Positions 1 to 5,170 of a stretch of DNA of 33,090 bases are shown here, in pieces. The DNA is taken from positions 1 to 33,090 of the forward strand of contig NZ_KB898686.1 in assembly GCF_000377765.1 (NCBI RefSeq). The letters run 5' to 3'. This stretch comes from Gracilibacillus lacisalsi DSM 19029 (GTDB taxonomy: Bacteria; Bacillota; Bacilli; Bacillales; Amphibacillaceae). Below the pieces are notes generated by a model that ran no database searches, was not told the DNA's origin, and saw only the letters and a list, made by a program, of their open reading frames with translations. Made by a program: the position numbers and the translations under genes. How positions within the stretch are numbered: the stretch's first letter is position 1; each line of letters opens with the position of its first letter.

Positions 1-465
1 ATGGAAAAAGAGTTTCAACATTTAACAGACTTAATTGAAGAAGTGAATCAAGAATATAACTTAACAGGACTAAATAAAGAAGCTATACCTGTTGGAGCAA
101 ATAGATTTAGTAATGAGTATTATTTTGTAACGATTTGGGATGATAAAGATTTCGAGGGAGCTTATCGGGAGTACTTAAAAAATTCCAATCGTTCAGGTAA
201 GGAATGGGAAGAAACGATCCAACTTAATAAAATAGAGCCAGATGGAATCAGTATCGCGATTAATCTTTATATGGCAGAGAAAGATGTTGAACCTAATCAA
301 GAAGCTTTTGATCATTTAATTGACAAGATTGAAGAAGCTGATAATATACCTAAGGGGCGATATGGAATAAGCCTTCATGATAATTATATTGATAAAAAAG
401 TTGCATCTGGTAGTAAGGATAATACTTTAGAAAAGGGACATCCAAATTATATTGTTAAAGAATAA
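1..465 (+). CDS. TilA-like immunity lipoprotein, C-terminal part (5' end outside window)
   Basis: This is the C-terminal half of a lipoprotein of the kind found complete at 1018-1968. The ATG at position 1 is not a start: the same ATG is an internal codon in the complete copy (1504-1506), so the gene begins left of the window. Bases 1-95 are identical to 1504-1598; after that the proteins diverge and only shared islands remain (for example EPNQEAFD and GISLHDNYIDK). The family resembles DUF1672, which includes the S. aureus TilA immunity lipoprotein for the TslA phospholipase. The stop abuts the GTG of a decayed lipase gene at 467, the same arrangement as in the complete module. Family assignment is from recalled similarity; the partial state and the duplication are seen directly. 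Confidence 0.75.
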   Translation: MEKEFQHLTDLIEEVNQEYNLTGLNKEAIPVGANRFSNEYYFVTIWDDKDFEGAYREYLKNSNRSGKEWEETIQLNKIEPDGISIAINLYMAEKDVEPNQEAFDHLIDKIEEADNIPKGRYGISLHDNYIDKKVASGSKDNTLEKGHPNYIVKE

Positions 466-1017: not shown

Positions 1018-1968
1018 ATGTTAAAAGTGAGAAAAAGTAGTTTAGTAGTCATCATGATTGTCAGTTTATTTATTTTAGGAGGATGTGGTGAAGTGCTAGA
1101 GAAATTTAATGATGCATCAGAAAACGAAACAAAAGATATAGATAATGGAGTAAACGGAAAAAATCCAGAAGTATTAATGCCTGTGCAAGAATACACAGGT
1201 GAAGAGTACACGTTAAGAAACGGAAAAGAAACAGATAAAATAGCAAATGAAAACCGCGAAATCATTGAAAATGCAGTGAAATGTTTCTTTGATGAAGAAT
1301 ATAACACAGAAGTCATCGTACATAACATAGTTGGCAATGTGGATGGTGCTACCGTATTTGTGGAATCAGTAGGAGAACCACACTTTTATACCTATGCCAT
1401 TATTCCAATTAATAAACAAGAAGAAGAAATTCTAGTTGATCAAGTGTGGTCACAAGAAGGACAAATAGAAAATGCCATTATGGCTGGAATATATGGAATG
1501 GTGATGGAAAAAGAGTTTCAACATTTAACAGACTTAATTGAAGAAGTGAATCAAGAATATAACTTAACAGGACTAAATAAAGAAGCTATACCTGTTGGTG
1601 CAGATAAATTTTGTAATGAGTATTATTTTGTCGCCATAAGAAAGACAGAAAACTTCAAAGGGCTTTTGAATAAATATATGGAAAATCCCGATCGTACAAA
1701 AGAAGAATGGAACAGTCTGATGGATTGGGATGAAATTCAACCAGATGAAATACGAATAGCTATTGATCTTTATATGACTGAAAATGGAGTGGAGCCAAAC
1801 CAAGAAGCTTTTGATTATCTAATTAATCTAATTGATAACGATGAGAGAATACCTAAAGGTTTGTACGGGATAAGCCTTCACGATAACTATATTGATAAAA
1901 CAACTGCTACTGGAAATAAAGATAATAGTCTTAAAAGAGCTAATCCAAATGATATTATAAAAGAATAG
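1018..1968 (+). CDS. TilA-like (DUF1672-type) immunity lipoprotein
   Basis: A 316-residue exported lipoprotein. The ATG at 1018 is chosen because AGGAGG lies at 1007-1012; the upstream in-frame ATG at 1003 would place that site inside the gene. Residues 1-22 form a lipoprotein signal peptide with a basic start, a hydrophobic core and the lipobox LGGC, so Cys23 should be lipidated and the protein held on the outer face of the membrane. The rest is acidic and soluble; stretches such as TVFVESVGEPHFYTYAI recall DUF1672. In S. aureus, the DUF1672-like lipoprotein TilA neutralises the type VII-secreted phospholipase TslA. The downstream lipase-like gene starts one base after this stop, supporting an immunity/toxin pair. 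Immunity is inferred from family and context. About 155 C-terminal residues are duplicated at 1-465. Confidence 0.75.
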   Translation: MLKVRKSSLVVIMIVSLFILGGCGEVLEKFNDASENETKDIDNGVNGKNPEVLMPVQEYTGEEYTLRNGKETDKIANENREIIENAVKCFFDEEYNTEVIVHNIVGNVDGATVFVESVGEPHFYTYAIIPINKQEEEILVDQVWSQEGQIENAIMAGIYGMVMEKEFQHLTDLIEEVNQEYNLTGLNKEAIPVGADKFCNEYYFVAIRKTENFKGLLNKYMENPDRTKEEWNSLMDWDEIQPDEIRIAIDLYMTENGVEPNQEAFDYLINLIDNDERIPKGLYGISLHDNYIDKTTATGNKDNSLKRANPNDIIKE

Positions 1969-1969
1969 G

Positions 1970-4042
1970 GTGATGATAGTGGTTGAGAAATATACTTCAG
2001 ATAGTGATCTTGTGGAATTATCTGGTTATCATGCGTATATAGAACAACGTGAATTAAATCATATAAACATTAATGGTACTGAATATGAAGTGGTAAATAC
2101 TAATTATAAAGATACTGCCGGTCTCGACGCCATAACTGTACAAAACCTATCCACTCAAGAATACACGATCGTTTACGTCGGCACCGATAAAGACCAACTC
2201 GAAGACTTGCTCACGGATGCTTATTTACTTAGCAGCACAGATGTACCACAATTAACAGCTGCTAAAAAGTACTATGAAAATATGGATAAACAGTATGGCA
2301 TTGATTCCGTTACAGGCAATTCCTTAGGTGGGGCATTAGCCAATTCCATAGCGGTTGAGTATCCTAATGTTAGGTCTGTAACGTACAATCCGGCCTTATT
2401 ACCTGGTCATTTAGTAGACACGGATAAGGATTATGACAACATTACCAACTATATCGGTCAATACGATGTATTAAATATGACATTAGATAGCTTAGGGCTC
2501 GGTGATCGTGTACCAGGGAAAAAACATGAAATTTATAATGGTATACCAGGTACTGCTGAGAGCAAATTTGGAACGATCGGAAGTAACCATACAGGTTATT
2601 TAAGAAATGATGAGGGAACGCAGTATTATGAAATCCGTCCAGATGGTGGTCCAGGATCTGGTCAAATTCATGTAAAAGCTGATGAGCACATTGTTACTAG
2701 CGCATGGACAGGGCAACCAATTTATGGAGATGGATCAACTAATATTCGAATTACACCAGAAGCATTACATACATTAGCCAATGGGCTACATGATTCTGTT
2801 TTTAATAGGTTGGAAAGAGCTTCAGAATATCTTAGCAATTCGAAAGAGATTATTGATGATGAAGCAGAAAGAAGGCACACAAGAATTAACATTCTCCAAC
2901 GCAGGCTCCAACAGATTATTGAATCCCAAATTGGTGAAGATATGGAAATGATGGGGAATTCTATTCAAGCGAGTATTGATGATATGCATCGATTATTGGA
3001 TCTAATTGAAGACAAAGGACAATCACTTAACTACTTATTAAATTCCCCGCCAGCTGAATTGATGGAATTTATCATGAACCGTCAAGTTGATGTATCTTCA
3101 TTGGTGGATGAAGCAAGAAATTTTTTGAATCAATTAAGTAGTAATGTTGATGAATTAATGGATAACTCTCACCTTATTTTAACAAGCGTAGTTCCTAAGC
3201 TTTTTCATGTAGGAATGGAAAAATGGCATGACGCTGTAGTAAACGAATTACAGGAACATTTTAACATTTTGATGAATAATAACGATATATTGCTTACACA
3301 GATACAAACTTTTCAACAACAAATCGAAGACACCGCAGATACTTTCGAAAAAACTGATTTACAATTAGCAAATGCAATCCAAAATAAAATTTCCTACATT
3401 AAAGAGGTATTCATCTCCGTAAAAGCTAACACTGACAACTTAGAACCATCCCCGTACTTAGAAGCTAAACTGGATATTAAAGAAATACAATTGGACTTAT
3501 CTTTTACCTATTTCTCAACGAAAATGAACAATCTTCTCACTCCTGTACTCGAAGGTATAAACGTCATACTCTTAGGTTTAGAAGTTACAATCGAAAGTTT
3601 ATCTTTTGCCATTAAACAAGGAACCAATATATTTCTTCGCCAAAGTTTGCCAGGTATGATAGTAAGTACGTTTACCGACTTCGATGATAAAGTGAGAAAT
3701 ACAGTCAAGAATACTTTAGAGCCTATCGATACCCTTGCCTCAAGGATTAATGGAGTAAGGGATGGCGTTAGAAGATTGAATAGCAATATCCCTACTATTA
3801 TAAACAGGTTTCGTCCCTATTTAGAAAATGCTTTGTTTAATAATGAACGTTTTTTTGATGTTTATTTATATAATAACTCAGCAATCGCACTTATAAGAGA
3901 ACTGGACTTAGTTTTCCAAGATATTAACAGCCAATTAGCAAACCATCATGCCAAAACCATTCTAGAGTTATTATTATATGGCAGACATATTAGTGTAAAT
4001 ATTAATCAATTACAGGAACAAGTAGAACGCGCAGCAAATTAA
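1970..4042 (+). CDS. TslA-like reverse-domain type VII-secreted lipase toxin
   Basis: A 690-residue protein with no signal peptide and no clear membrane segment. Residues 1 to about 260 form an alpha/beta-hydrolase lipase-like domain: the GxSxG nucleophile motif GNSLGG has Ser118, and Asp166 (QYDVLN) and His207 (SNHTGY) are plausible triad partners. Residues from about 263 to the end are long amphipathic helices rich in N, Q and E. This order, enzyme first and helical targeting domain last, is that of S. aureus TslA, a phospholipase A secreted by the type VII system. The lipoprotein directly upstream fits its immunity partner. The start is uncertain: GTG 1970, ATG 1973 and GTG 1979 are all possible; GTG 1970 aligns with the start of the decayed copy. 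No small helical partner proteins or type VII machinery genes are in the window. Activity and secretion are inferred. Confidence 0.7.
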   Translation: MMIVVEKYTSDSDLVELSGYHAYIEQRELNHININGTEYEVVNTNYKDTAGLDAITVQNLSTQEYTIVYVGTDKDQLEDLLTDAYLLSSTDVPQLTAAKKYYENMDKQYGIDSVTGNSLGGALANSIAVEYPNVRSVTYNPALLPGHLVDTDKDYDNITNYIGQYDVLNMTLDSLGLGDRVPGKKHEIYNGIPGTAESKFGTIGSNHTGYLRNDEGTQYYEIRPDGGPGSGQIHVKADEHIVTSAWTGQPIYGDGSTNIRITPEALHTLANGLHDSVFNRLERASEYLSNSKEIIDDEAERRHTRINILQRRLQQIIESQIGEDMEMMGNSIQASIDDMHRLLDLIEDKGQSLNYLLNSPPAELMEFIMNRQVDVSSLVDEARNFLNQLSSNVDELMDNSHLILTSVVPKLFHVGMEKWHDAVVNELQEHFNILMNNNDILLTQIQTFQQQIEDTADTFEKTDLQLANAIQNKISYIKEVFISVKANTDNLEPSPYLEAKLDIKEIQLDLSFTYFSTKMNNLLTPVLEGINVILLGLEVTIESLSFAIKQGTNIFLRQSLPGMIVSTFTDFDDKVRNTVKNTLEPIDTLASRINGVRDGVRRLNSNIPTIINRFRPYLENALFNNERFFDVYLYNNSAIALIRELDLVFQDINSQLANHHAKTILELLLYGRHISVNINQLQEQVERAAN

Positions 4043-4122: not shown

Positions 4123-5082
4123 TCAAGTCGTATGCGAAACAATAAACGTTGCATTACCAGCTAATTTATATTGCTGAATCGTAGCCGGAATAATAAAGTG
4201 ATCACCTTTTTTAATATCGTATGTTTGGTTACCTGTCGTAATAGTAGCTTCTCCCTCTACCATACTAACTTGCACAAAGTCTGCCGTTCTTTCCAGCTCT
4301 GCTTCGCCATGTAAATCCCAATGATAAACCGTGAAATACTTTTCTTCTACTAGCTTTTTCTCCGTTAATCCTTGTTTATCCACAACTTCTTGGATTAATT
4401 GCGGTGTTTCATGTGGAACACTCGTTACTTCTTTCGCTTCTTTTAAATGTAATTCTCTTGTATTACCGGCTGCATCTGTCCGATCATAGTCATAAACGCG
4501 ATAGGTAATATCAGAGCTTTGCTGTGTTTCTAAAATAACGATTCCTTTACCAATGGCATGGATCGTTCCACTTGGTACATAGACGAAATCGCCTGCTTTT
4601 ACTTTAACACGGCGTAATAAATCATCCCACTTGCCCTCATCAATCAGCTTTTCTAATTCTTCTCTTGTTTGAGCATGGTGACCGATGATTAATTCGGCAT
4701 CTTCTTCTGCACTTAATACGTACCAGCATTCAGTTTTACCATATGCTTCATTCGCTACTTCTCTTGCATATTGATCATCAGGGTGAACTTGAACAGAAAG
4801 GTTGTCGTTTGCATCCAAAATTTTGATTAACAGTGGATAAGCTTCCTGGTTATCCACAGGCTTGTTAAATAATTCGCCATGCTGATTCCATGCATCTAAA
4901 AGTGTTTGATCTTTTAAAGGGCCATTGATAATTTTACTTGGTCCATTCTCATGAGCAGATATTGCCCATGCCTCACCAGTTTGTTCGTAAGGAATCGTGT
5001 AATGAAACTCTGTATGTAACTTCTGACCGCCCCATATTCGTTCCTGAAAAATCGGTTGAAGGAAAATTGGTTCTTGATACAT
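4123..5082 (-). CDS. manA: Mannose-6-phosphate isomerase, class I
   Basis: A 319-residue zinc enzyme that interconverts mannose 6-phosphate and fructose 6-phosphate, feeding mannose into glycolysis or supplying mannose 6-phosphate for glycan precursors. The N-terminal motif FQERIWGGQKL is typical of short Bacillus-type enzymes (about 315 residues). Likely zinc ligands are Gln98 and His100 (VQVHPDD), Glu118 (KTECWYV) and His175 (GTIHAIGKG). The start at 5082 has GGGGAGAG about eight bases upstream and gives the usual N-terminus; a longer in-frame extension to 5145 lacks that support. It is a single gene, convergent with the toxin island. Two perfect DnaA boxes (4376-4384, 4850-4858) and a parS-like site (4405-4420) lie inside it. 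Confidence 0.93.
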   Translation of the reverse strand: MYQEPIFLQPIFQERIWGGQKLHTEFHYTIPYEQTGEAWAISAHENGPSKIINGPLKDQTLLDAWNQHGELFNKPVDNQEAYPLLIKILDANDNLSVQVHPDDQYAREVANEAYGKTECWYVLSAEEDAELIIGHHAQTREELEKLIDEGKWDDLLRRVKVKAGDFVYVPSGTIHAIGKGIVILETQQSSDITYRVYDYDRTDAAGNTRELHLKEAKEVTSVPHETPQLIQEVVDKQGLTEKKLVEEKYFTVYHWDLHGEAELERTADFVQVSMVEGEATITTGNQTYDIKKGDHFIIPATIQQYKLAGNATFIVSHTT

Positions 5083-5170
5083 AAATAGACTCTCCCCTAT
5101 CATTTCTATAAGTTCGTACTTCCTAAAAGATACTATCTTATCCATCTAAAATCAATCTATATCCTGTTAT

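Follow-up and report, generated by a model that had tools for sequence, protein, structure and literature searches.

What is the role of the lipoprotein gene and the lipase-like gene that lie one base apart near the start of contig C25 (NZ_KB898686.1) of Gracilibacillus lacisalsi DSM 19029? The contig is one of 44 in the 4.4-Mb genome, and the stretch analyzed here, hereafter the window, comprises its first 33,090 nucleotides. Our comparative analysis makes it likely that the pair encodes an antibacterial lipase toxin of the type VII secretion system (T7SS), subtype T7SSb, together with a DUF1672 immunity lipoprotein, that the specificity of the two resides in an exchangeable block spanning the gene junction, and that additional DUF1672 genes serve as spare immunities. 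The parts of the pair are located as follows:

1018..1968, + strand: DUF1672 lipoprotein, probable immunity protein of the neighboring lipase
1603..2102, + strand: variable block over the gene junction, 61-76% identity to Gracilibacillus suaedae
1970..4042, + strand: SA1320_fam protein with an N-terminal class-3 lipase-like domain and a C-terminal helical part
2315..2332, + strand: GNSLGG nucleophile motif (Ser118), putative triad with Asp166 and His207
2756..4036, + strand: helical C-terminal part, residues 263-689 (DSSP of the model), with a T7SS targeting role suggested by TslA

The lipoprotein gene starts with an ATG at 1018 (a further in-frame ATG lies at 1003) and stops at 1968; its product carries the lipobox LFILGGC with Cys23 and matches DUF1672 (PF07901) over the gathering cut-off. 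After a gap of 1 base, the lipase open reading frame (ORF) runs from a putative GTG start codon at 1970 to 4042 and encodes 690 aa, with GNSLGG at residues 116-121. An earlier reading made from the DNA letters only (the sequence-only reading) had described this arrangement, including the helical C-terminal part and the lack of a signal peptide, and the structural model and hydrophobicity analysis bear it out. Ser118, Asp166, and His207, each invariant in 55 of 55 aligned proteins, presumably form the catalytic triad. The lipase N-terminus has no hydrophobic stretch: among 15-residue segments starting within the first 60 residues, the best Kyte-Doolittle mean is 0.6, versus 2.9 for the lipoprotein. 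In the lipase model (mean pLDDT 87.5), an alpha/beta domain extends to about residue 245 and is followed by helices at residues 263-689; the predicted fold is that of class-3 lipases, as modelled for TslA, a T7SS substrate of Staphylococcus aureus neutralized by the lipoprotein TilA. The lipase matches SA1320_fam (NF047388) over model positions 1-644 of 644 with 656.6 bits (cut-off 230), a family whose name carries no function. Its match to WXG100 is below the cut-off (E = 0.44), and no LXG match is listed; TslA itself carries no such motifs (PMC10730906). A search of solved structures by sequence returned 4qpv for the lipoprotein and none for the lipase.

Relatives were collected by pattern-based scanning of 84,980 species, each represented by a single genome, with 13 aligned lipases as the starting set. 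The scan yielded 82 relatives, 80 of which were kept, giving 79 loci, mostly from Bacillaceae and otherwise from, e.g., Listeria, Sporosarcina, and Sporolactobacillus; some genomes contain more than one locus. A DUF1672 ORF lies upstream of the lipase in 77 of the 79 loci, within 47 bases in 71; in the remaining 6 of the 77, the lipase is incomplete or its longest piece is not the first one. The two loci without an upstream DUF1672 ORF start at contig ends. Given this recurrence and the strong matches of both proteins to curated families, the pairing is more than chance. More than one DUF1672 ORF, split genes counted, is present in 37 of the 79 loci. In a sample of 159 genomes of the family, all 13 carriers of SA1320_fam (over the cut-off) have DUF1672, and 3 others have DUF1672 alone; in a sample of the order, SA1320_fam is patchy (35 of 397 genomes). 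Other lipase loci (L026, L028, L030, L034, and L035) have small adjoining lipoproteins of 110-145 aa, some of them in tandem, and possibly represent a further lipase/lipoprotein family; one such lipoprotein matches DUF1433 below the cut-off (3.2e-6).

Is the pair connected with type VII secretion? The sequence-only reading had named the absence of type VII genes from this genome as a ground for giving up its proposal; the genome encodes EssC (1887.5 bits, over the cut-off) and a WXG100 protein (71.7 bits) and has four matches to LXG that exceed the cut-off. Across genomes, EssC over the cut-off accompanies SA1320_fam in 12 of 13 carriers in the family sample (versus 54 of 146 others; one-sided Fisher p = 1.2e-4), in 5 of 5 carriers in the own genus (versus 1 of 12 others; p = 0.001), and in 33 of 35 carriers in the order sample, which overlaps with the family sample (versus 102 of 362 non-carriers; p = 6e-15). 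A genus-level tally gives 18 of 18 versus 32 of 118 (p = 1.5e-9). Moreover, T7SS genes (phmmer, E up to 1e-5, up to 8 kb on each side) are located near the lipase in nine of the 79 loci (L109, L110, L114, L120, L123, L132, L135, L139, and L141), when about 0.6 would be expected by chance according to our own estimate of a 31-kb target in 4 Mb (p = 1.7e-8 under that rate). In Listeria farberi (L120), the pair lies directly behind EssC, which there is read as two ORFs, and the pair of Cerasibacillus (L110) is embedded in the T7SS cluster. The T7SSb locus of G. lacisalsi itself (G000:C6:128000-160000; L058 and L059) contains EssC and an LXG protein, followed by apparent tandem paralogous ORFs, two of which begin VFLDKLKEEDFYVLRGAL; these ORFs are perhaps another immunity array.

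Comparison with G. suaedae, the nearest named relative found (its lipase is 91% identical), revealed a variable block across the gene junction. In 100-base bins, identity is 93-100% in 1003-1502, falls to 61-76% in 1603-2102, and is 90-99% in 2303-4002; the bins at the edges have 87-88%. This low-identity part of about 500 bp runs from near lipoprotein residue 196 through approximately the first 44 codons of the lipase, and the two copies within the window diverge in much the same part. Such a block is frequent in related strains. After filtering, the 66 complete cassettes gave 46 related pairs, of which 45 were profiled. The bin of lowest identity falls on the lipase start or the lipoprotein end in 30 of the 45 pairs, and a drop of at least 15 points relative to the lipase C-terminal end was observed in 31 pairs from 7 separate groups. 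In 30 of the latter, identity in the middle of the lipoprotein exceeds that of either junction bin. Identities at the lipoprotein end correlate with those at the lipase start (r = 0.97) and hardly with those at the lipase C-terminal end (0.05), in pairs that share members and hence are not independent. Over 43 non-Listeria loci, the distances of the lipoprotein and lipase parts correlate, with small partial correlations (0.06 to 0.38) that give the junction no special place; only close relatives reveal the block.

Additional immunity genes lie to the left of the active pair. The left end of the window, a part overlooked by the sequence-only reading, contains two further elements:

1..465, + strand: 3' part of a second DUF1672 lipoprotein gene (PF07901, E = 8.4e-16), with the 5' part on contig C26
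473..823 (start about 473), + strand: truncated lipase 5' end, 79% identity to lipase residues 6-114 (E = 5.8e-52)

Contig C26 overlaps window bases 1-232 at 100% identity and holds the remainder of the first of these genes and one further DUF1672 gene; thus, the array on C25 and C26 comprises three DUF1672 genes, one broken lipase start, and one intact lipase. The truncated copy stops just short of the catalytic serine position. About 24 kb beyond the array, C26 also encodes a 566-aa LXG-domain protein (G000:C26:25834-27534, L154; LXG 85 bits), the end of whose gene is overlapped by a 192-aa ORF.

The C-terminal half of the second lipoprotein of the window is 78% identical (94/120) to the active copy of G. 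suaedae, compared with 52% (63/120) between the two active lipoproteins; similarly, the truncated lipase start shares 69% identity with the active one of G. suaedae, versus 62% between the active ones. Among 57 full-length extra copies, a count omitting extras under 280 aa and thus the split copy of the window, the C-terminal half is at least 75% identical to the active copy of another genome in 13 and to that of the own genome in 2, where the former figure is the best of many and the latter a single comparison. Relative to the own active copy, median identity of the 57 extras is 74% in the N-terminal half and 54% in the C-terminal half. In 27 divergent pairs with an extra copy, including the split copy of the window, the extra exceeds the active-to-active identity by 10 points in 10 pairs and falls short of it in 3, a result biased upward by taking the best of several.

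Truncated lipase pieces were initially noted in 19 of the 79 loci; removal of five split main lipases (L108, L122, L124, L130, and L139) left 15 pieces in 14 loci. Fourteen of the 15 lie directly behind a DUF1672 ORF, 11 begin at the lipase start, and all end by profile position 211. Most are located upstream of the main lipase, and two downstream (L120 and L138). These pieces are either donors or decaying remnants.

The antibacterial interpretation draws on a putative immunity lipoprotein located outside the cell, a lipase that lacks a signal peptide, the association with EssC, and spare immunities in tandem, and TslA provides a worked precedent. Export of the lipase would probably rely on the T7SSb whose genes lie elsewhere in the genome, with targeting by the helical C-terminal part, and the exported enzyme would attack membrane lipids of neighboring relatives from outside. 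Anchored on the external side of the membrane, the DUF1672 lipoprotein would bind and inhibit the lipase. The match between toxin and immunity is probably set by the junction block, i.e., the C-terminal half of the lipoprotein and the lipase start; with one block extending over both genes, toxin and immunity could change together in a single recombination. The extra DUF1672 copies are probably kept against the toxins of relatives.

How does the pair relate to TslA/TilA? Both systems share a lipase domain followed by helices, an immediately preceding gene for an immunity lipoprotein, immunity genes in tandem, a polymorphic N-terminal part, and a T7SSb in the genome (PMC10730906). The reversed domain order and the lipoprotein/lipase pairing proposed by the sequence-only reading are supported. 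Its placing of DUF1672 with TslA is not supported: the lipoprotein does match DUF1672, but TilA belongs to DUF576 (PMC10730906). In a profile search, the lipoprotein did not match DUF576 (PF04507) up to E = 10, and DUF576 structures are absent among the structures listed for the modelled lipoprotein fold, which still allows for a shared fold. A DUF576 search of the own genome was uninformative, as the control matched nowhere.

Gene content differs as well. TslA requires TlaA1 and TlaA2, encoded just behind tslA (PMC10730906), whereas no such gene follows the lipase: after 80 bases comes the end of an opposite-strand gene (4123-5145). The earlier statement that no partner or secretion genes lie beside the pair is upheld. 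ORFs between 55 and 210 aa in the 79 loci were clustered (BLAST, 1e-4); among the 15 largest clusters, the only T7SS-type ones were EsxA-like (6 loci) and YukD-like (4 loci), although divergent partners could escape this approach, and the largest small-ORF cluster (8 loci) sits on the opposite strand. Three Listeria loci (L127, L129, and L141) share a candidate partner of 122-146 aa, whose ORF closely follows the lipase gene and which has no family match in the one member tested. Since no shared small partner was found, the C-terminal part may suffice in Bacillaceae, or may borrow a general partner.

It is thus unlikely that the pair is a true but divergent member of the TslA/TilA (Tsl1/Til1) family with partner proteins encoded elsewhere in the genome, as the sequence-only reading had proposed. 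The domain and gene order, the modelled class-3 lipase fold, and the presence of T7SSb agree with such membership. The immunity protein belongs to PF07901, however, the helical part is about 430 residues long, the 79 loci share no partner genes except EsxA and YukD, and the lipase has a family model of its own. By immunity family and gene content, features used here in place of a TslA sequence comparison, we file the pair as SA1320_fam with DUF1672; by analogy, it is probably a second reverse-order lipase/lipoprotein family working like TslA/TilA. The Tsl1/Til1 family is described from S. aureus, Enterococcus, and Listeria, and further reverse-order T7SS substrate families are expected to be found (PMC10730906, Discussion). 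One comparator locus, L027, encodes a 465-aa lipase, weakly related to the family (NF047388, 1.9e-14), followed by a 108-aa ORF; we take it for a Tsl1-like pair.

Several observations weigh against the T7SSb toxin interpretation. As to secretion, 70 of the 79 loci have no T7SS gene within up to 8 kb on each side, three genomes carry the lipase without EssC over the cut-off (G061, G171, and G367; G061, the exception in the family sample, has only weak ATPase matches of at most 129 bits), EssC is partial or contains stops in G022, G105, and G498 and is in two pieces in G190, all four being counted as EssC-positive carriers, and the genome counts from the overlapping samples are uncorrected for kinship. 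There is no TlaA1/TlaA2-like partner gene, the next ORF of at least 80 aa being on the other strand and ending at 4123. As to the block, 14 of 45 pairs lack the 15-point drop, and the middle of the lipoprotein also correlates with the lipase start (0.88). The C-terminal halves of the extra copies have close medians, 56% to the best foreign copy and 54% to the own one, in figures that set the best of many against one; together with the 13 of 57 matches, this limits strong matching to a minority of extras. Finally, the only matches of the helical part are to generic bundles, including some pore-forming toxins. The last point would fit a pore-forming or membrane-acting protein, with the helical part acting as an alpha-pore former and the lipase domain in an accessory role; we give this the least credence.

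The scarcity of nearby T7SS genes would also suit a housekeeping or phage-related lipoprotein/hydrolase pair unrelated to T7SS or competition, as would the insertion of PVL phages in the DUF1672 cluster of S. aureus (PMC7010278). This explanation is very unlikely, given the patchy distribution of the family, its strong co-occurrence with EssC, the tandem extra lipoproteins, and a variable block confined to the gene junction. Nor did we find any match among 72,556 plasmid records, and 50,697 phage records gave a single weak one. This match (OR845015.1, 2470-4611) is distant and full-length to the lipase (19.4% identity), in a 5.2-kb unannotated record that is named as a Staphylococcus phage and suspected to be chromosomal DNA. 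No PADLOC match to anti-phage defense was found up to E = 0.01.

Other known systems resemble the T7SSb toxin pair proposed here. SA1320_fam and DUF1672 are known by name from S. aureus, and we found no difference from them: the match is full-length and the neighbors are DUF1672. The reverse lipases at T7SSe and T7SSg loci of Neobacillus and Paenibacillus (PMC11217815) are, by description, alike in the C-terminal helical part and the T7SS link. The esaG, tipC, lpl, tspA, and Rhs arrays (PMC9484751) likewise contain tandem immunity copies with conserved and variable parts and partial toxin copies among them. Partial copies are known for tspA, at the toxin 3' end, and for Rhs (PMC9484751); unlike these, the partial copies here are toxin 5' ends, as expected of a reversed toxin, and mostly precede the active gene, and the variable block spans a junction between two genes. 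DUF1672 lipoproteins are listed with function unassigned (PMC5020093), the insertion site of PVL phages in S. aureus lies in a group of three or four DUF1672 genes (PMC7010278 and PMC10763498), and SA1320 is interrupted in ST764 isolates (PMC8826912). We found no T7SS role for DUF1672, SA1320, or SA1319, and no description of PVL phages entering a toxin/immunity array, in the literature searched, with preprints and most subscription papers outside its scope; as far as this search shows, the junction block and the T7SS reading of SA1320_fam/DUF1672 are new.

A more far-reaching version can be put forward only tentatively. In it, the C-terminal domain of this T7SSb toxin family would be a self-sufficient signal with no dedicated partners, the single exchangeable junction block would be served by the upstream modules as a donor bank, and PVL phages of S. 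aureus would integrate into the corresponding array. Each module, an immunity gene with a truncated toxin 5' end, would supply matching DNA flanking the block, so that the arrangement mirrors that of orphan toxin-tip/immunity cassettes.

The analysis proposes a function for SA1320_fam and DUF1672, named from S. aureus and found in Bacillales and Listeria. The junction block predicts the contact parts of toxin and antidote. If the proposal is true, the pair represents a further reverse-order T7SS substrate family, apparently without small partners, which may therefore show the smallest C-terminal signal, and the PVL phages of S. aureus would integrate into a toxin/immunity array.
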